Positions 9,907 to 56,560 of a stretch of DNA of 56,607 nucleotides are shown here, one piece after another (the stretch's first letter is position 1; each line of letters opens with the position of its first letter). The DNA lies in contig QYQM01000147.1 of assembly GCA_007280905.1 (NCBI GenBank), forward strand, positions 1 through 56,607, read 5' to 3'. The position numbers and the translations under genes were made by a program. The DNA is from Porphyromonadaceae bacterium. GTDB lineage: Bacteria; Bacteroidota; Bacteroidia; Bacteroidales; UBA12481. The notes beneath the pieces were generated by a model that saw only the letters and a list, made by a program, of their open reading frames with translations, searched no databases and was not told the origin of the DNA.

Positions 9907-10368
9907 ATGAACATTTACAAGGTTACTCTGACAAAGGAAGAACGAGATGAATTGACTGAAATGACCAGAACCGGAACTCATGCTGCAAGAAGGATTATTC
10001 ATGCACTAATTCTGTTGAATGTTGATCGGGGTCCCAATACTCCGGAAAACCAGATCAATGAAGACATCTGTAAGGTTTTGAAGATCGGGATGCGAACTAT
10101 TGACCGGGTAAAGAAGCGGTTTGTTGAGGAAGGGCTTGAGGCGGCTTTAAAGATGGCACCTACTACCCGGGTATATGATCAGTTGGTGGATGGAGACATG
10201 GAAGCTCACCTGATTGCGCTGGCTTGTGGTGAACCTCCAGAAGGTTACGCCCGTTGGTCCTTGCGACTATTGGCAGATAAGCTGGTAGAACAACGAATTG
10301 CGGATACTATTTCATACGAAACGGTGCGGCGCACGCTAAAAAAAACGAACTTAAGCCTTGGAAAGTAG
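9907..10368 (+). CDS. IS630 transposase, N-terminal part (helix-turn-helix, frame A)
   Basis: 153 residues with the helix-turn-helix region of IS630 transposases ('INEDICKVLKIGMRTIDRVKKRF', 'GYARWSLRLLADKLVE'). The frame reads CTA AAA AAA ACG at about 10335-10346 and then stops at 10368. A -1 slip in that run of eight A gives 'NELKPWKVVGWVIPAKG', the normal family continuation. The A-run is a plausible A AAA AAA slippery site, so the full transposase may be made by programmed frameshifting. A decayed or mis-sequenced copy is the alternative. Confidence 0.8.
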   Translation: MNIYKVTLTKEERDELTEMTRTGTHAARRIIHALILLNVDRGPNTPENQINEDICKVLKIGMRTIDRVKKRFVEEGLEAALKMAPTTRVYDQLVDGDMEAHLIALACGEPPEGYARWSLRLLADKLVEQRIADTISYETVRRTLKKTNLSLGK

Positions 10369-10415
10369 TCGGTTGGGTTATTCCTGCCAAGGGAAACGCA
10401 GAGTTTGTAGCAGCC

Positions 10416-11042
10416 ATGGAAAAGGTTTTGGATGTTTACAGGAGAGCTTATAATCCAATGAGACCGGTAGTTTGCATGGATGAATCGCCCAAACAGTTGC
10501 TTGGTGAGACACGTGTTGCGATACCCATGAGTAAAGGGCATGCCCGTAAATGTGATTATGAATACGAACGTTTAGGGGTTTGTAATATTTTTCTTGCCAA
10601 TGAACCGTTGGCCGGATTCCGAACAGTGAAAATCACCGAAAGCAAGTGCAAGGTTGATTGGGCTGAGTTCATCAAGGAAATCGCTGACGAACATTATCCG
10701 AAAGCTGAACTCATCACTTTGGTTATGGACAACTTTGGAACCCATACCCCTGGCGCATTATACGAGCGGTATGAACCGGAAGAGGCCAAACGGATATTGG
10801 ATCGGTTTGAGTTTGTTTTTACCCCAAAACATGGGAGCTGGCTCGATATGGCTGAGATTGAACTTAACGTACTGAATAATCAATGCTTAGGATGCAGAAT
10901 TGAAACCATTGAAAAAGCCAGGAAAGAAGTTCAGGCATGGGAGAAAGCTCGCAATGGATTCACTAAAAAAATTAATTGGCAATTCACCACCGAAAAGGCT
11001 CGAATCAAATTGAAAAAACTTTATCCGTCATATGATCGTTGA
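10416..11042 (+). CDS. IS630 transposase, C-terminal DDE domain (frame B)
   Basis: This is the -1 frame continuation of the preceding part; 10416 is only the first ATG in the frame. The DDE catalytic signatures are present: VVCMDESPKQL (first Asp), LVMDNFGTH (second Asp) and 'HGSWLDMAEIELNVLNNQCL' (Glu). Its stop overlaps the right terminal repeat. Both halves look full length, so the element may still be active if frameshifting occurs. Confidence 0.8.
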   Translation: MEKVLDVYRRAYNPMRPVVCMDESPKQLLGETRVAIPMSKGHARKCDYEYERLGVCNIFLANEPLAGFRTVKITESKCKVDWAEFIKEIADEHYPKAELITLVMDNFGTHTPGALYERYEPEEAKRILDRFEFVFTPKHGSWLDMAEIELNVLNNQCLGCRIETIEKARKEVQAWEKARNGFTKKINWQFTTEKARIKLKKLYPSYDR

Positions 11043-11675: not shown

Positions 11676-12083
11676 ATGAAACGCAAATTATTTTTAACGA
11701 CTATCCTTTTGACCTTTTGTGGCTTTGGTTTGCTGACCCTAAGTTCCTCTATTCCTGCTCCAGATTATTCGATTGCCAGAGTTTATTGGTTTGATGGTTT
11801 AACTTGTGATGCTGAAGTCCACGTTGATGGATATCTTTATGGAGGGGGAACAGGTTCCGAATCCTTTACAGCCACTTATTCGGGCAGCGTCGGAAGCCCG
11901 AATCCTCATAAAGATTATAACCTTGAGAATGCTTATACTTGGGGAACTATTCATATTTCCTATTATTACGTAAAAAATGGCCAAACAATACACTATACTA
12001 ATTATTGGCAATTTAGTAAAACCTCTCAAGAAGCATTCGATCAACTGATTGAGATTCCTGTTTGCAAATATCCAGAAGAGTAA
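11676..12083 (+). CDS. Small secreted protein of unknown function
   Basis: 135 residues starting MKRKLFLTTILLTFCGFGLL, a clear signal peptide (about residues 1-26). The mature part is rich in Tyr, Thr and Gly ('YSGSVGSPNPHKDYNL') and looks beta-stranded, with two cysteines (CDAEV and PVCKYPEE) that could form one disulfide. I do not recognise the family. It ends shortly before a strong hairpin terminator, so it is its own transcription unit. Confidence 0.65.
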   Translation: MKRKLFLTTILLTFCGFGLLTLSSSIPAPDYSIARVYWFDGLTCDAEVHVDGYLYGGGTGSESFTATYSGSVGSPNPHKDYNLENAYTWGTIHISYYYVKNGQTIHYTNYWQFSKTSQEAFDQLIEIPVCKYPEE

Positions 12084-12118
12084 CGCGATGAATAGCGTTG
12101 ATCATTAATTTTTTTTAG

Positions 12119-12150
12119 AATACTCGGGGAACCTTGCTTCCCCGAGTATT
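12119..12150. terminator. Strong hairpin terminator, 13-bp stem
   Basis: The arm at 12119-12131 (AATACTCGGGGAA) pairs perfectly with 12138-12150; the loop is six bases (12132-12137). T-rich sequence lies on both sides, so it may work in both directions. It ends two bases before the promoter box of the next gene. Confidence 0.85.
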
Positions 12151-12151
12151 T

Positions 12152-12159
12152 TATCTTTG
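12152..12159 (+). promoter_or_regulatory. -7 box TATCTTTG of the DUF4249-like lipoprotein gene
   Basis: An exact TAnnTTTG match ends five bases before the ATG at 12165, so the transcript would be nearly leaderless. The nearest TTG (12134-12136) lies in the terminator loop, only 15 bases upstream, so the -33 element is weak or absent. Confidence 0.55.
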
Positions 12160-12164
12160 TCCTC

Positions 12165-13151
12165 ATGAGAAAACTTGGAATCATTATAATTCTTGTTATT
12201 TGTAGTTGCGAAACAGAATTCTACCCTTATGATGCTTCGGTCAAACCGATTCCAATTGTTTTTGGCATGATTGATACCAATGATTCAATACATTCTATTC
12301 GACTCACAAAAACCTTTAGTGGAACGGAGAATGCTTACAAACTTGCAAAAGACACATTGAACCTTTTATACGACTCGGTTAGAATGATCATCGAATGTCT
12401 GGATGGCAATTTAAAAGTTATTGATTCTCTGATTTTTCACAAAACCTATTTTATCCCTCCATCTTCAGGAATCTTCAATACGGGTAAAGGCTGGTATTAT
12501 GTTTCGACCGATAAATTTCCTTCGGCCGATTCTTTTGTACTCTTCAGACTCAAAGTCTGGATTTACGATTCTGGTGATACCATAGTCTCACGCAATATTT
12601 ATACATATAGTACTAGTGATAGGACTCAAATACTGTCACCTTCCAAAATCTCACAATACATTTCCGTGTACAATGAAAGTGTTACCACGATTGCGTATAG
12701 AGGTCATGATATATGTGGGATAAAACTTCGTTTGCACTATTTTGAAATAAGAAATGATACTAAAACTGATAAAAGTATTGAAGAGTTTTGGTTAGATACA
12801 AATGGATCCGGGGCATTTCGCCTTACTCCTGCTAGGTTATTCATGTTTATAAGAAATACCATTCCCGAAAATCCGGATGTCGATTTTCGAATTTTTAGTG
12901 GCTTAGATATTTTTTCATATGCAGCACCAAAGGCATTCGTTATTTACAATCAACTGTTTAATACAGACAGAAGCTTTTATTCAGATATTACCTTTTTTGA
13001 AACACCTTACAGCGATATTACCAATGGATATGGGTTGTTTTACGAGTACACAAAAGATTCAATTATCAGTTTAAAGTTTGATGAAAAGACTTTGGATTCT
13101 TTGGCTTCCGGTCAATATACTAAGAAACTGAAGTTCGTTTCTTACCAATAA
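12165..13151 (+). CDS. Lipoprotein, DUF4249-like
   Basis: 328 residues. The N-terminus MRKLGIIIILVICSCETE has a lipobox with the lipidated Cys at position 15. The following 'PIPIVFGMIDTNDSIHSIRLTKTF' resembles the start of DUF4249 proteins, which in Bacteroidota are often cell-envelope lipoproteins near TonB-dependent receptors. No receptor gene is adjacent here. The assignment rests on this pattern only; the lipoprotein call is firmer than the family call. Confidence 0.6.
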   Translation: MRKLGIIIILVICSCETEFYPYDASVKPIPIVFGMIDTNDSIHSIRLTKTFSGTENAYKLAKDTLNLLYDSVRMIIECLDGNLKVIDSLIFHKTYFIPPSSGIFNTGKGWYYVSTDKFPSADSFVLFRLKVWIYDSGDTIVSRNIYTYSTSDRTQILSPSKISQYISVYNESVTTIAYRGHDICGIKLRLHYFEIRNDTKTDKSIEEFWLDTNGSGAFRLTPARLFMFIRNTIPENPDVDFRIFSGLDIFSYAAPKAFVIYNQLFNTDRSFYSDITFFETPYSDITNGYGLFYEYTKDSIISLKFDEKTLDSLASGQYTKKLKFVSYQ

Positions 13152-13281: not shown

Positions 13282-13830
13282 TTAAGTTTCAATTCCGGGC
13301 ATCCTTTTCCACTTCCCACTCGATTTTTGAAATTGAACAAGTTGCTCCGGTTCAACCAATCCATAAAATGTACCATCATTCTTAATACCCCAAATTATAC
13401 AATCAGGCATCAATCCAGAGTCAAAACAATCATTGAGGCAATAAATTGCTTTGTTCTTTATTGATTGAAAGAAAGTAAGAAGCTTCATATTATTTTCAGT
13501 TATGAATATCAGAAAATCATCCGTTTTGAAAAAGCTATAGATACACCCGACTCGTTTCCCTTGGTTAATCTGGTCTCTCAATTCAACACTGGAAAGTGTT
13601 GCTAATTCCTTCGATGAAAAATTATACTTTCCAAAATTTAAAATATATCGGATACTTTCGTTGTCTCCAATTAATTTATAGACGTTGTAATTCCAGGGAG
13701 CAACAAATAAAACTTCACTGTTATTAATCCATACCGGACAATAAGAATCATCGAAATCAAGTTTAAATTTGACAATATTATTTAGAACATCAATTAAATC
13801 AATCGGTTCTAATATCAATCCAGAAGGCGC
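13282..13830 (-). pseudogene. Truncated copy of the 6-bladed beta-propeller lipoprotein
   Basis: About 180 residues closely match the C-terminal half of the intact protein at 48966-50117: LFVAPWNYN, 'KYNFSS.ELATLSS.ELR', 'FFQSIKNK..Y.LNDC.DSGL' and GLVEPEQLVQFQKSS are shared almost exactly. The first half (signal peptide and about 200 residues) is missing. The frame is closed upstream by a stop at 13831-13833, and the only start is a TTG at 13818. The last 15 residues also diverge. It is best read as a decayed duplicate. Confidence 0.8.
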
Positions 13831-46060: not shown

Positions 46061-48171
46061 ATGAAAACACGTTCATTATGGATTGGATTTACGATAGTAG
46101 TGACCCTCTCCTTTGCGGTGCTGCTCTTCTTTGGGCGCGAGATTTACCGGCAGGGCCCGCCGATTCCTAAACAAGTGGTTACCACTTCCGGCGAAGTATT
46201 ATTTACCGGGGTCCAGATCCGCGACGGCCAAAACGTATGGCAATCAACAATTTTGAGGCACTCGGTTTGGAGCAGCAGGCAGGCTTGCAAGCCCGGCTTA
46301 AACAGGAGATCCGGACCAATACCTATGACAAGAAAACCGGCAACCTCGTAATCTCTGAGATGCGTGCGAAAGCCTACAGGGCTAACAGCAGCTATTATGC
46401 AAAGTTATTCATGAACGACCCCTCGATGGCCTCCCTTAGGGATGCTTATGCCATGATGGATAATACGGTTAAGGATCCCGACCGGATGGCCCTGATGAAT
46501 ACTTTCTTCTTTTGGGCAACCTGGGCAACATCAACCAATCGCCCCGGTCAGGATATTACCTATTCCAATAACTGGCCGCCTGAAAAGCTCATCGATAACG
46601 TACCTTCTCCTTCTTTGATTTTCTGGACTGGATTCAGTGTAATCATTCTGCTGGCCGGTATCGGGCTGCTCGCCTGGTATAAGGCATCGGTTAAAGAAGA
46701 TAGCCTGGACTTCATTCCCGACAAGAACCCAACCATCGGAACTTTGATGACCCCTTCTATGAAGGCTACCCTCAAATATTTCTGGATTGTTACCGCCCTG
46801 ATTCTGGTTCAGATCCTGATGGGAGTAATTACCGCCCATTATAGTGTTGAGGGACAGGGTTTTTATGGATTGCCACTTTCGAAAATCCTGCCCTATTCCC
46901 TCTCCCGTACCTGGCATATTCAATTGGCTATCTTCTGGATTGCCACTTCATGGTTGGCAACCGGCTTGTTCTATGCACCAATCATTTCCGGTCATGAACC
47001 CAAATACCAGAAACTGGGTGTAAACCTCCTCTTTGGCGCGCTGCTGGTTATCGTTGTAGGCTCATTGGCCGGCCAGTTTTTAGCTATCATGCAAAAACTC
47101 GGATTAGTTCAGAACTTCTGGTTCGGACATCAGGGTTATGAGTATGTCGATCTGGGCCGGTTCTGGCAAATATTTCTATTCGCAGGTCTGTTCATTTGGC
47201 TTTTCCTGATTACCCGGGCCATTATACCGGCCTTAAAGAAGAAAACCGAAAGCCGCAGTATGCTGATAATGTTTGTGATAGCCTCATTGGCCATTGCCGC
47301 CTTTTACGGAGCCGGTCTGATGTGGGGCCGTCAAACCAATCTGGCCATGGCCGAATACTGGCGTTGGTGGGTAGTTCACCTCTGGGTGGAAGGATTCTTT
47401 GAGGTATTTGCCACGGTGATCATCGCCTTCCTTTTTGTCAGGATGCAACTCGTTCGGGCACAAACAGCCACAACAGCGGTTCTTGTTTCGACCATCATTT
47501 TCCTTTCCGGCGGGATCCTCGGAACATTTCATCATCTTTACTTTATAGGAACACCAACGGGAGTGCTTGCCCTCGGTGCCACTTTCAGCGCACTGGAAGT
47601 CGTGCCATTGGTATTGATCGGGTTTGAGGCCTGGCATAACCTCCGGCTGAGCCGCTCATCCGACTGGATAAAAATTTACCGCTGGCCTATCTATTCCTTT
47701 ATGGCGGTAGCCTTCTGGAATCTCGTCGGTGCCGGAATTTTCGGTTTCCTCATCAATCCCCCAATTGCGCTTTACTACATGCAGGGATTAAATACCACCC
47801 CGGTACACGGACATACCGCCCTTTTCGGGGTATATGGTATGCTCGGTATCGGTCTAATGCTGTTTGTATTACGCGAAATGGATCTAAAAGTCATCTGGAA
47901 GGAAGGCGCTCTCAAATGGTCGTTCTGGCTTATAAATATTGGCCTGCTGGCGATGGTATTAATCAGTGTTTTGCCGGTTGGGCTTGCCCAAACCATTGCC
48001 TCTGTTAAACATGGCCTCTGGTATGCACGCTCTGCCGAATTTCTCGATACGCCGATGATTGCAACCTTCCGGTGGATGAGGATTTTTGGTGATATGCTCT
48101 TTTCTGCCGGTGCCGTTTGCCTGGCCTGGTTTGTATTTGGATTGAAACTCGGCTGGAGTGTGAAGAAATAA
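46061..48171 (+). pseudogene. norZ: Quinol-dependent nitric oxide reductase (qNOR/NorZ) with a small deletion and frameshift
   Basis: Frame 1 (46061 to about 46240) carries the first membrane helix and 'VLFTGVQIRDGQNVWQS'. Frame 2 (ATG 46237 to 48171) resumes at 'ALGLEQQAGLQARLKQEIRTNTYD' and then encodes the rest of the enzyme. Functional qNOR has about 45-50 residues (GGQ..GT.WGHGAYVAPDW region) between these points, so about 140 bases are missing and the frame changes. All later elements are intact: 'WHIQLAIFWIATSW', 'EGFFEVFATVIIAF', 'GTFHHLYFIGTPTG' and 'VHGHTALFGVYGM', holding the heme and non-heme iron ligands. Frame 2 alone would lack helix 1. It is either a recent pseudogene or an assembly error. 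Confidence 0.85.
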
Positions 48172-48645: not shown

Positions 48646-48903
48646 CTATTCAGGATTAACGGCTTCTTTACATCCCACATGATTAATGTCAGTTGCTTCT
48701 CCGCAACATATAGGAATGTAAAAACCATATACCCAAGTATCATGAGTCCTGTAATAGTGTCCATTTGCGGTATCACATTGTGGACCACTACAGGTAGTTG
48801 GTCCACCTTCGTCTGCATAAACCTTTATGGGTGGAGATGTCGTAAACACCAAGACGGAACAAGCAATTAATGCCGTTCCAAATAAAATAGTTTTTCTTTT
48901 CAT
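48646..48903 (-). CDS. Small secreted cysteine-containing peptide, NVEALA-like
   Basis: 85 residues, MKRKTILFGTALIACSVLVF signal region, processed near KVYADEGGP. The mature part has five Cys ('TTCSGPQC', 'PICC', 'GCKEA'). The layout of a short basic N-terminus, hydrophobic stretch and small Cys-containing tail beside a 6-bladed propeller resembles NVEALA peptides of Bacteroidota, although the NVEALA motif itself is not present. It lies 62 bases downstream of the propeller gene on the same strand. Function unknown. Confidence 0.6.
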   Translation of the reverse strand: MKRKTILFGTALIACSVLVFTTSPPIKVYADEGGPTTCSGPQCDTANGHYYRTHDTWVYGFYIPICCGEATDINHVGCKEAVNPE

Positions 48904-48965
48904 AATTATTTAAGTTTTAGTTCGTCGGAATTTTTGGTTTCGATATTACCATTATAAGAATTGTA

Positions 48966-50117
48966 TTAAAGCTCACTAACAGAGAATATAATAATGTATG
49001 GATTATCGTTATCATTAATGTCTAACTCTTTAAACTGATCACTAGATTTCTGAAATTGAACAAGCTGTTCCGGTTCAACCAGTCCGTAAAAGGTGCTATC
49101 ATTCTTAATGCCCCAATTAAAACAAAAGGGAATTAAACCAGAGTCAATACAATCATTGAGACTATAGATTTTCTTATTCTTAATTGATTGGAAAAAGGTG
49201 ATTAGCTTCCTGTTATATTCGACTATGAATACCAGAAAGTGATTCGTTTTGAAAATGCTATATAAGGATCCTACTTTGCTCCCCTGATTAATTTGCTCTC
49301 TCAATTCATCACTCGAAAGCGTTGCTAATTCGGTGGATGAGAAATTGTACTTTCCAAAACTCAGATGGTAGCGGATTCTCTCCTTGTCTCCAACAAGGTG
49401 ATAGATGTTGTAATTCCACGGAGCGACAAATAAAATTTCATCGCGATTAATAAATACGGGAGTAAACAAATCCATGGATACTTTATTGTTACTCAAAAGA
49501 ATGTCAAAATGTTTTTCCTTTGTAAAACTATTAGTGAATAAGGTATATGTTAGAAATTGGGTCTTTCCCTTTGGACTTGGGTTAGGGCTTGTAGCACAAT
49601 TATATACAAGAAATGTGTCTCGATTAATATGGTAGAAGTCCTTAATAAATACATTCGGGTGTTTCTTGGAATAAATAAAATTGCCATTCAAATCATACGT
49701 GTTGATCGCACTTAATGCCTGGTCGTGTAATAAAATTACTGAATCTTCTTCATTGATGGCAAATGCATATGGTTCTATTACTTCCCCTGGTCCTTTCCCC
49801 TGAATGGTTTTCCAAACGAATTTTCCCTTTTCGTCAAAAACAAAAAAAGTCGGTTTTTGAAACCTGTTCTTATCAATAAGATAGAACCGATGGTTAAAAT
49901 ACTTTACCTGAGATGCATAACCTATTAGGCTATTTTGAGAGGTTTCAAGAGGGATCACATCCTTAATGCTAACGTTTAATAAAGCTCCGTTTTTGTCATC
50001 TATGTTTATTATTATTTCCTCTGGACTCTTATCCATTCCCGATTCGCGATTCGCACAAGAAGCCAGAAGGACAAATAGAATGCTGGCAACAGTAATAATA
50101 GTAATTGGATATTTCAT
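48966..50117 (-). CDS. 6-bladed beta-propeller lipoprotein
   Basis: 383 residues; MKYPITIITVASILFVLLASC has a lipobox (LASC). Repeated strands such as 'GYASQVKYFNHRFYLIDK', 'VFDEKGKFVWKTIQGKGPGE' and 'DEILFVAPWNYNIYHL' are typical of 6-bladed propellers. Members sit in the periplasm or outer membrane facing inward and are often encoded with small secreted peptides; the biochemical role is unknown. A truncated copy lies at 13282-13830. It is followed by the small peptide gene and preceded by the thioredoxin-fold gene, 63 bases apart, so the three are probably an operon. Confidence 0.85.
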   Translation of the reverse strand: MKYPITIITVASILFVLLASCANRESGMDKSPEEIIINIDDKNGALLNVSIKDVIPLETSQNSLIGYASQVKYFNHRFYLIDKNRFQKPTFFVFDEKGKFVWKTIQGKGPGEVIEPYAFAINEEDSVILLHDQALSAINTYDLNGNFIYSKKHPNVFIKDFYHINRDTFLVYNCATSPNPSPKGKTQFLTYTLFTNSFTKEKHFDILLSNNKVSMDLFTPVFINRDEILFVAPWNYNIYHLVGDKERIRYHLSFGKYNFSSTELATLSSDELREQINQGSKVGSLYSIFKTNHFLVFIVEYNRKLITFFQSIKNKKIYSLNDCIDSGLIPFCFNWGIKNDSTFYGLVEPEQLVQFQKSSDQFKELDINDNDNPYIIIFSVSEL

Positions 50118-50180
50118 AAGGTAAATGGCTATTTAGTTGAGATTTTGGTTTTGTTTCTGGATGTTTGATATACAATGTTT

Positions 50181-50801
50181 TTAAAATCCTTTTCTAAAAA
50201 ATGCTCGAATTCTACTAAAATAGATTTCATTCAATTCTGGATACTCATCCGCTAAAAAAGCATATTGAATCTTAAGTTTTTCATCCAATAAGAAAAAAAA
50301 GGGTGTCTTCTTTATGTCTGAGTCAGTTTCAATACTTAGATTAAAACTTCCTGTAAAATTGTAACAAGGAAAATTTATTCCAGTGCTATTTCTGAAAATA
50401 TTCAATAAGCGAGTATTTTCATAGTCAGAAATGATAATAATGTTTTGGTACCCTATGCTATCTCCTAGTTCTCTCAAGTACTTAATATCATCAGCAACGC
50501 AGGCGCTACAGGATTGGTTTGAAAATCGGTAAATGAGTTTTGACGAGGTAACTAAACTCTTAATTGGAACAGTATCATTATTCAAATCAGTTAAATAGAG
50601 ATCTCGTAATGTCAGATTTTCAGTATATAACTCCCTATTAAACCTGTAGACATACTTCTTAATTCTATACTCAGATAGTATTAAATCCTTTCTTAATTCT
50701 TCATAATGTTTAAAAGTCTGTCTTGACTTAAAGGATAAATAAATCAATACAGGAACGAAAATTAATAATAACAACCAGCAAAGATTAAGGTTCCTTTTCA
50801 T
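50181..50801 (-). CDS. Membrane-anchored thioredoxin-fold protein with CSAC motif
   Basis: 206 residues. One N-terminal hydrophobic segment (about residues 7-24, LCWLLLLIFVPVLIYLS) anchors it. Then come a short coil and 'YRFSNQSCSACVADDIKYL', a CxxC in thioredoxin-like position (Cys98/Cys101). 'NIIIISDYENTRL' and 'TPFFFLLDEKLKIQY' complete the fold, including the cis-Pro (KKTPF). It could reduce or form disulfides in the periplasm, perhaps those of the Cys-rich peptide two genes downstream; that link is inference. Confidence 0.75.
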   Translation of the reverse strand: MKRNLNLCWLLLLIFVPVLIYLSFKSRQTFKHYEELRKDLILSEYRIKKYVYRFNRELYTENLTLRDLYLTDLNNDTVPIKSLVTSSKLIYRFSNQSCSACVADDIKYLRELGDSIGYQNIIIISDYENTRLLNIFRNSTGINFPCYNFTGSFNLSIETDSDIKKTPFFFLLDEKLKIQYAFLADEYPELNEIYFSRIRAFFRKGF

Positions 50802-55412: not shown

Positions 55413-55640
55413 ATGACTATTAGAAAAATGAGGATTTTTTTGTTAATCTGTGGATTAGCAATTTCTTCAGCCGGGTTTAGTCAATCGGGAATTCTGTATA
55501 CCCTTTTTCATAATCCGACCGGATTAACTGTTGGAACATTGAATAATGCCGATGACACCTATGTTGCTTTATCTGAAACATTTTGTTTTTCGGCTTTTTG
55601 TTCAACTCTGGATCCGGTTAATGGTCAATTAATCTTTTAG
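55413..55640 (+). pseudogene. Secreted protein gene cut by the IS1595 element
   Basis: About 75 residues: 'MRIFLLICGLAISSAGFSQ' is a signal peptide (start at 55413 or 55428) and the mature part 'LYTLFHNPTGLTVGTLNNAD' continues to LDPVNGQLIF. The stop TAG (55638-55640) is contributed by the first bases of the insertion element. The downstream half should lie beyond 56607, outside the window. Confidence 0.7.
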
Positions 55641-56560
55641 GTATAGGCGCTTAGGTATCCCTTCGAAATGCCCATATTTAAACGAATTGGTTTATTTAAT
55701 ACCATTCTTTTAAGGAGTAAATCGAATATTGTATTCATATTATTTCTTCTATTGTATCTAAAGTGATATTCATTTAGATACCCTTGCAATCTATCTTTAC
55801 TACAATGATGATGAATTCCTCGCAGCCAGCCTTTCAAATTCATGATATGAACATGCAGGTCTATAAAGGCATTCCCATCGTTTGATTTCCGTTGTTCAAG
55901 TCCTGGATACTCTTTCTTTAATGGACCGTATCCTTTCCATTCATCGGTAATTATTTTTGCATGGGTTGAAATATGTTTTGAGAAAAAAACACGAAACTCT
56001 TTTGCTGATGCGCTTTCTATCACTTGTGCATAAGCCCGACCGACTCCTTCTGGTATTTTTTCTAAAGCCAAAACCACTAATTTTTTTGATCCTTTACTCC
56101 GACCTCTTTTCATTTCTTCAGGTCCTCCGATCCACAATTCATCAACATGGATTTCACCTTCAAGAGGATAGTTTAAACTACTCTGCATCGCTTGTTGTAT
56201 CTTCCATTTAAACTCCCAGCAAGTTTTTTGTCTCAATTCGAATTCATGACTTAATTCTAGTGATGACATTCCTTTTTTCTTAGTGCTAATTTTAAAAGCA
56301 ATATGGAAAGCAATTAATATGGGAAACTTGATTTTATCAAACACTGTACCTGCAGTAGGGCTTTCATCATACTTACATTTTGAGCACCGTTGTGAAAATA
56401 GTTTCTTTCCGGGAATAAATTTTGTATTTCCGCATTTCTTGCACTCATATCCTTGTTCCCATTTGATTGCTGCAATATAGGAGTAACAATCTTCATCCGT
56501 TTTAAATCGTTGATTGAATTTGATTGAGTTCACTCCGGCGAATATTTCTCTGTTTTCCAT
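55637..56560 (-). CDS. IS1595-family transposase (ISXO2-like)
   Basis: 307 residues. A zinc ribbon (CKKCGNTKF ... CSKCKYDES) is at about 38-65. The DDE-type catalytic region has HVDELWIGG (Asp) and IITDEWKGY (Asp), with 'HIMNLKGWLRGIHHHCS' and 'YLNEYHFRYNRR' near the third acidic site. The stop codon uses the terminal bases of the element and one base of the target. It looks complete. Confidence 0.93.
   Translation of the reverse strand: MENREIFAGVNSIKFNQRFKTDEDCYSYIAAIKWEQGYECKKCGNTKFIPGKKLFSQRCSKCKYDESPTAGTVFDKIKFPILIAFHIAFKISTKKKGMSSLELSHEFELRQKTCWEFKWKIQQAMQSSLNYPLEGEIHVDELWIGGPEEMKRGRSKGSKKLVVLALEKIPEGVGRAYAQVIESASAKEFRVFFSKHISTHAKIITDEWKGYGPLKKEYPGLEQRKSNDGNAFIDLHVHIMNLKGWLRGIHHHCSKDRLQGYLNEYHFRYNRRNNMNTIFDLLLKRMVLNKPIRLNMGISKGYLSAYT

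Follow-up and report, generated by a model that had tools for sequence, protein, structure and literature searches.

A recurrent thioredoxin-propeller-peptide cassette in Bacteroidota and its possible role in the folding of exported peptides

Bacteroidota genomes repeatedly encode NVEALA (PF14055) peptides and DUF5128 propellers, and to our knowledge neither family has an established function. In a contig of a Porphyromonadaceae bacterium, which was analyzed as a single stretch of 56,607 nucleotides (hereafter, the window), the gene for a DUF5128 propeller lipoprotein lies between those for a thioredoxin-fold (Trx) protein and a small, Cys-rich, secreted peptide. This arrangement raises the question of whether the three genes form a unit and, if so, what the Trx-fold protein and the propeller do for the peptide. 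Here, we describe the three products, their recurrence in related genomes, and the readings that this recurrence allows.

The three genes in the window and their products

A preliminary description of the window had reported three same-strand genes separated by 62 to 63 bases, and the open reading frames (ORFs) were indeed found at those places on the minus strand (Table 1). They are transcribed in the order Trx-fold protein, propeller lipoprotein, peptide, with 63 bases between the first two genes and 62 between the last two. A TAnnTTTG box was absent from the 350 bases that precede each of the three genes, none of the PADLOC families was matched by the three proteins at an E-value of 0.01, and neither MauE nor signal peptidase I is present in the window cassette. 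No peptide-modifying (RiPP-type) enzyme was spotted among the neighboring ORFs of the window, which were inspected by eye.

Table 1. Positions in the window of the cassette genes and of the parts of their products
Feature	Position	Strand	Basis
Trx-fold (ResA/TlpA-like, CSAC) protein with N-terminal membrane anchor, 206 aa	50181..50801	-	ORF and family profile
C98-S-A-C101 redox motif of the Trx-fold protein	50499..50510	-	Alignment of 10 rows, both Cys invariant
DUF5128 six-bladed beta-propeller lipoprotein, 383 aa	48966..50117	-	PF17170, 1.2e-29; model closest to 4raa
Lipobox L-A-S-C of the propeller	50055..50066	-	Sequence; Cys21 invariant in 11 rows
Secreted Cys-rich peptide, 85 aa	48646..48903	-	ORF; relative beside the sister-genus propeller
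Likely signal peptide, residues 1-30	48814..48903	-	Sequence, and same place in other cassette peptides; putative site
Likely mature peptide with 5 Cys (C38, C43, C66, C67, C78)	48649..48813	-	Sequence

The first gene had been described as encoding a membrane-anchored Trx-fold protein with a CxxC motif, and this was borne out by a hydrophobic N-terminal stretch, by the CSAC motif, and by a match to ResA through a family profile. On its own, the protein scored 17.9 bits against Pfam Redoxin, which is below the cut-off of 26.6, and a profile built from 10 of its relatives found ResA structures (4nmu) at an E-value of 1.6e-8. In the same 10-row alignment, P167 was nearly invariant. The structure model was poor (pLDDT 59.3); it shows a long N-terminal helix, and the order of its strands and helices fits the thioredoxin fold. 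When this poor model was used for fold comparison, Trx-type entries reached only Z-scores of 2.0 to 2.8, and the top entries were V-ATPase helices, which match the long N-terminal helix and not the domain.

The propeller scored 103.9 bits against PF17170 (DUF5128) in a Pfam profile search (cut-off 22.9), and its structure model (pLDDT 72.7) was closest to 4raa, with a Z-score of 28.0, an rmsd of 3.2, 330 aligned residues, and 15% identity. The lipobox Cys is the sole invariant Cys across 11 aligned propellers, C332 being common to the four closest, and a lipobox-like Cys occurs in 140 of 168 propellers. Two or more acidic residues follow this Cys in 6 of the 35 propellers with a cassette neighbor, as against 20 of the 105 without one. 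The two propellers most similar to that of the window (50% and 48-49% identity), both in one genome (G002), have neither a Trx nor a peptide gene adjoining, so the propeller can persist without them. A narrower search with the propeller alignment gave three loci in two MAGs, apparently the same places as in G002 and in the sister-genus genome described below (G001). The window also holds the remnant of a second copy of its propeller (13282-13818, minus strand; aligned part 13317-13738), without a start or neighbors, which is 79% identical over 420 bases, with residues 216-365 at 72%.

The small peptide had been said to carry five Cys; it has six in total, one of which lies inside the hydrophobic stretch and five in the part that is likely exported. 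The peptide starts with positive charges and a hydrophobic segment that ends in KVYA-DEG, with the five Cys behind, and cleavage would be expected after KVYA and before DEG. The peptide had no Pfam or NCBIfam match up to an E-value of 1, and a direct search of named genomes gave no relatives. Among the 12 genomes of the family set, one other match was found (E-value 4.8e-4), in the sister-genus genome.

Several other features of the window were recorded. At 11676-13151 (plus strand), a 135-aa secreted protein with two Cys after a hydrophobic start is followed by a 328-aa lipoprotein that is DUF4249-like by eye, and neither protein had a Pfam match at an E-value of 0.01; a weak DUF4249 match also occurs after the Trx gene at another locus (L109). 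At 46061-48171 (plus strand), a gene that is nitric oxide reductase-like by eye appears to be split, its 96-aa start overlapping the 644-aa rest in another frame, through a frameshift or an assembly error. ORFs that look transposase-like by eye lie at 9907-11042 (plus strand, in two pieces) and 55637-56560 (minus strand).

Recurrence of the cassette in related genomes

The genome that contains the window has 26 DUF5128 places and 11 places that match the Trx profile, 8 of them strongly, that of the window included. Each of the eight strong Trx places adjoins a same-strand propeller, at no more than 69 bases in seven cases; at L070, the Trx gene is 549 bases from the propeller, with a signal peptidase I gene between. 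Different Cys-rich secreted peptides are encoded near the Trx places L056, L061 (two peptides), L063, L068, and L070, and the Trx places L054 and L059 have looser peptide neighbors. At a further locus of this genome (L066, contig C59, 3-5695), a DUF5128 propeller is flanked by a Cys-rich peptide, whose leader is by eye of the double-glycine type (LDALKGG), and by a 546-aa protein that matches VKOR below threshold; here, a different kind of peptide is found with disulfide machinery and a propeller.

In the sister genus (G001), a locus with the same gene order as the window encodes a Trx-fold protein (CPPC), a propeller with 41% identity to that of the window, and two tandem peptides, the relative of the window peptide adjoining the propeller. 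Upstream on the same strand lies a second unit that consists of a signal peptidase I (matching PF10502), another Cys-rich peptide, a propeller, and a Trx-fold protein. A further cassette occupies the same place, beside genes that are moeA- and moaA-like by eye, in the genome of the window (L061), in G005 (L105), and in the sister-genus genome (L108). Its upstream peptide shares 46, 39, and 45% identity in the three pairs, as compared with 32, 32, and 26% for the Trx-fold protein and 30% (one pair) for the propeller, and the second, downstream peptide is, at 28%, no better conserved than the propeller. At this shared cassette, therefore, conservation exceeds that of the machinery for only one of the two peptides. 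The dN/dS comparison gave no usable ratio here, as dS was undefined in all pairs but one (3.5).

We then consider the wider counts. Among 149 genomes of the order, PF17170 was found in 30, and NVEALA in 7, all of them within those 30, although one of the seven (G063) is doubtful, its sole match being weak and lying inside a long frame. The Trx family was found in 15 of the 149 genomes at an E-value of 1e-5 or better, and in six of these at better than 1e-20. We called ORFs in the stretches around the listed propeller places of the PF17170 genomes and recorded small, secreted peptides that had two or more Cys. The control consisted of 300-480 aa ORFs taken from 20 regions, each of 20 kb (400 kb in all). 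This peptide definition was set after the cassette peptides had been viewed and is to that extent tuned, and it was applied uniformly to survey and control. A same-strand peptide of this kind was encoded within 1 kb of 29 of 151 propellers, among the matches listed, versus 1 of 61 control ORFs (Fisher p = 3.5e-4, with related loci counted separately and thus not independent). The peptide was far more frequent where a Trx gene lay within 1 kb of the propeller (13 of 19) than where it did not (16 of 132; p = 4.6e-7), a difference that holds at 500 and 1500 bases and also when at least three Cys are required. L103-L114 were chosen for their Trx match, so the share of propellers with Trx is inflated, but not the share with a peptide given Trx; L114, which overlaps L053, was excluded from these neighbor counts. 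The distance between Trx and propeller genes was -41 to +69 bases in 19 of 22 cases. A majority of the propellers surveyed lack both a Trx and a peptide neighbor.

On a tree of 168 propellers (from which L105 and L114 were excluded), the Trx label changed 17 times and the peptide label 25 times, indicating that the arrangement has been gained or lost many times. When the association between Trx and peptide was corrected for the tree, 11 independent pairs gave about 5.5 concordant and 0.3 opposite cases, the rest showing no difference (median p = 0.06), so the corrected association runs in the right direction but is weak. The preliminary description would have fallen if relatives of the propeller had lacked conserved peptide and Trx neighbors; both were found to recur with the propeller above the control, and together. 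The three-gene cluster is thus not a product of chance.

Cassette peptides and larger operons

The preliminary description had also linked propellers of this type to NVEALA peptides. Among 40 cassette peptides picked by hand from propeller neighborhoods, 13 matched PF14055 at an E-value of 0.01 or better, and the link therefore stands for the cassette; it does not extend to the window peptide, which has no such match. Membership of the window peptide in NVEALA was considered and rejected, both on the profile result and because the mature parts do not align, and PF14055 had no match anywhere in the genome of the window at an E-value of 1. Twelve aligned NVEALA rows all have A-L-A and an E three positions further on; no NVEALA-like motif is present in the window peptide, which has IKVYADEG. 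The other cassette peptides have different residues at the motif place after a hydrophobic start, and many have a short segment that ends in A and is followed by acidic residues. By these features, the window peptide belongs with the non-NVEALA cassette peptides. In a comparison of the window-type and NVEALA alignments, the signal region alone aligned (probability 61); the two types share their place in the cassette, and the likeness in sequence found between them is limited to the signal region. A secreted Cys peptide adjoining a DUF5128 propeller is found in the window, which is a trait of the setting and not of the Pfam model. Because the peptide can change almost completely while the machinery stays, profile searches miss many cassette peptides (27 of the 40 picked), and the ORF caller also overlooked some, for example, an NVEALA match at G115:C85:20404-20568.

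The Cys content of these peptides bears on their chemistry. An even number of Cys was found in the exported part of 33 of the 39 hand-picked peptides that have Cys and, by sequence cluster, in 18 of 21 peptide clusters (p = 7e-4). In an automatic peptide set, which excludes L105 and L114 and holds a few doubtful ORFs, the count was even in 30 of 40 (p = 0.0011). Among the propellers of the same loci it was even in 88 of 165. As peptide counts are mostly even and propeller counts are not, the peptide is a likelier disulfide substrate than the propeller. The trend in the automatic set was equally strong with a Trx neighbor (12 of 15) and without (18 of 25), which argues for disulfides and not for this Trx-fold protein. 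The window peptide, with five exported Cys, is an exception, and one of its Cys would stay free or link two molecules. A CC pair is common to all 11 hand-picked window-type peptides and occurs in 17 of the 40, against a mean of 9.6 and a maximum of 18 in shuffled sequences, so this excess is suggestive only.

Some relatives of the cassette are considerably larger. L104 encodes a peptide, a propeller, a Trx-fold protein, a signal peptidase I (PF10502), and a Wzy_C protein (PF04932). L106 encodes an NVEALA match, a propeller, a Trx-fold protein, a signal peptidase I, a transglutaminase-like protein (sub-threshold, 17.7 bits against a cut-off of 23), and a Wzy_C-TPR protein; the relative of the transglutaminase-like protein at L104 had no Pfam match. 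L288 (G084) combines an above-cut-off NVEALA peptide with proteins that are propeller-like and Trx-like by eye and with signal peptidase and transglutaminase-like matches. The most complete NVEALA-type operon was L291 (G116, contig C16, 2-8849), in which two sub-threshold NVEALA peptides, a weak propeller match, and a second protein that is propeller-like by eye share one strand with a transglutaminase-like protein, a CSSC protein (Trx-like by eye), and MauE, signal peptidase, and Wzy_C profile matches. Outside the class, the Trx family was found in 3 of 296 genomes of the phylum besides that of the window. One of these loci (L282, from another class) encodes, in one row, MauE (PF07291, 3.3e-25), Wzy_C, a 98-aa peptide, a propeller, and a Trx-fold protein (CSVC). 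Beyond this row lie a further MauE (4.6e-23), a DUF5128 propeller, a trio of short peptides (2 to 4 Cys each), and a CKPC protein that resembles Trx by eye. L283 encodes a peptide, a DUF5128 propeller, and a Trx-fold protein, and at L284 the Trx match is interrupted by a stop.

With profiles built from cassette members, signal peptidase I was detected at seven separate loci of the survey, never more than 1.3 kb from a propeller, and nowhere in the 400 kb control. Wzy_C-TPR gave 10 matches outside the control (two of them weak), at loci that include L104, L106, L147, L154, L159, L227, and L282, versus one weak match within it; since the surveyed stretches mostly extend about 4 kb from the propeller, the closeness of both families is partly by design. 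A transglutaminase-like protein occurred once in the control. The single MauE match in the genome of the window is on contig C102, away from the window cassette. Some Wzy_C proteins transfer glycans to proteins, which makes glycosylation of the peptide conceivable.

What the cassette may do, and how it compares with known systems

In our view, these results are best explained by a cassette that is dedicated to exporting and oxidatively folding a disulfide peptide, the partner of the DUF5128 propeller, a reading to which we assign a probability of roughly 0.58. The peptide would leave the cytoplasm by the general export route, and signal peptidase I would cleave it between A and DE. In the periplasm, the Trx-fold protein, tethered to the membrane and encoded first in the operon, would pair or proofread the Cys of the peptide, and the folded peptide may then act as a ligand or subunit of the propeller lipoprotein. 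The window cassette would be a short relative of the larger NVEALA-type operons with signal peptidase I, MauE, Wzy_C-TPR, and transglutaminase-like proteins. Use of the peptide as a signal, as an antagonist, or as an enzyme subunit is possible; the variability of the tandem peptides favors exchange with other cells, and the good conservation of the upstream peptide at the shared cassette argues against a pure arms race. We put forward only tentatively, as a proposal with the odds somewhat against it, that all NVEALA-type operons, the short form included, are one Bacteroidota system for exported disulfide peptides, with its own signal peptidase I, MauE and Trx machinery, Wzy_C-TPR perhaps adding a glycan, a propeller that binds the product, and the peptide as an intercellular signal or ligand.

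The same gene row could arise if the Trx-fold protein served the propeller, or the envelope generally, with the peptide as a passenger; DsbL, for example, serves the propeller enzyme ASST. Trx and propeller are indeed the tightest pair, 6 of the 19 Trx-adjoined propellers have no peptide within 1 kb by the definition used, the parity of the peptide Cys is independent of Trx, and the window propeller weakly resembles arylsulfotransferase (PF05935, 16.3 bits, under the cut-off of 24.2). We nevertheless consider this unlikely, since the propellers offer the lipobox Cys as their only invariant Cys and show no Cys parity, and since the presence of the peptide goes strongly with that of Trx. A role of the peptide as a bacteriocin-like or contact toxin in variable forms, with the propeller as a display or self-protection factor, would account for the strong differences between the peptides of different loci, for their tandem sets (three at L179, three at L282, and two at L053), and for the patchy cassette that is expanded in single genomes. 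Such a role also seems improbable, given that the upstream peptide is the best conserved gene of the shared cassette, that PADLOC gave no match, and that no immunity-like partner or bacteriocin-type exporter was spotted by eye in the cassettes, except at the differently arranged L066.

Methylamine dehydrogenase has a propeller subunit and a small disulfide-rich subunit, and propeller and peptide might likewise be two subunits of an enzyme with MauE-/MauD-like maturation. The row of MauE, peptide, propeller, and Trx at L282 fits such an enzyme; MauE is absent beside the window cassette, the window peptide has only one Trp, the peptides vary greatly, and 4raa, the nearest structure, is of no stated function, so we regard this as a distant prospect. 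Least probable of all, to the point of being hardly credible, is that the small ORF is a spurious call and that the genes cluster by coincidence: the window peptide has a single detectable relative in the family set and none in the named-genome scan, but that relative has the same place and order in the sister genus, and peptides are enriched over the control.

Read as an oxidative-folding cassette, the cluster has links to Trx, signal peptidase I, and MauE that would make two families without an established function into one testable pathway. The cassette is real and recurrent, its parts belong to named families, and as a system it is undescribed in the open-licence literature searched: in the open-licence part of PMC, we found no description of a Trx-propeller-peptide cassette.

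Among known systems, methylamine dehydrogenase maturation (MauE, MauD) has a similar set of parts, with a true MauE (PF07291) in the distant L282; it differs in that MauE is absent at the window and that there is no sign of a tryptophan cofactor. MauE has been speculated to form the disulfides of the methylamine dehydrogenase small subunit, and the function of MauD is described as unclear (PMC7794033). In the candidate RiPP clusters of Streptomyces that the same source presents, mauE and mauD homologues lie beside a precursor with at least eight Cys, and the authors proposed a role for them in modifying that precursor (PMC7794033). Mau-type genes thus stand beside a Cys-rich precursor there as in the cassette relatives, whereas the Streptomyces clusters are actinobacterial and come, in the passages of the source that concern them, with no mention of a propeller (PMC7794033). 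The Trx-fold protein shares with the ResA/TlpA oxidoreductases the membrane anchor, the CxxC motif, and the conserved Pro; unlike them, it forms a subfamily of its own that is tied to the propeller and the peptide and has a variable CxxC dipeptide. NVEALA proteins, like the window peptide, are small, secreted, and adjoin DUF5128 propellers, mostly have Cys, and show a hydrophobic start, a segment ending in A, and an acidic residue shortly after, and some of their operons carry Trx or signal peptidase I. The structure closest to the propeller, 4raa, is BF0058 of Bacteroides fragilis, which has the same DUF5128 family and fold and is titled only "putative exported protein"; to the DUF5128 propellers as known, the present analysis adds the association with a Trx-fold protein and a peptide.
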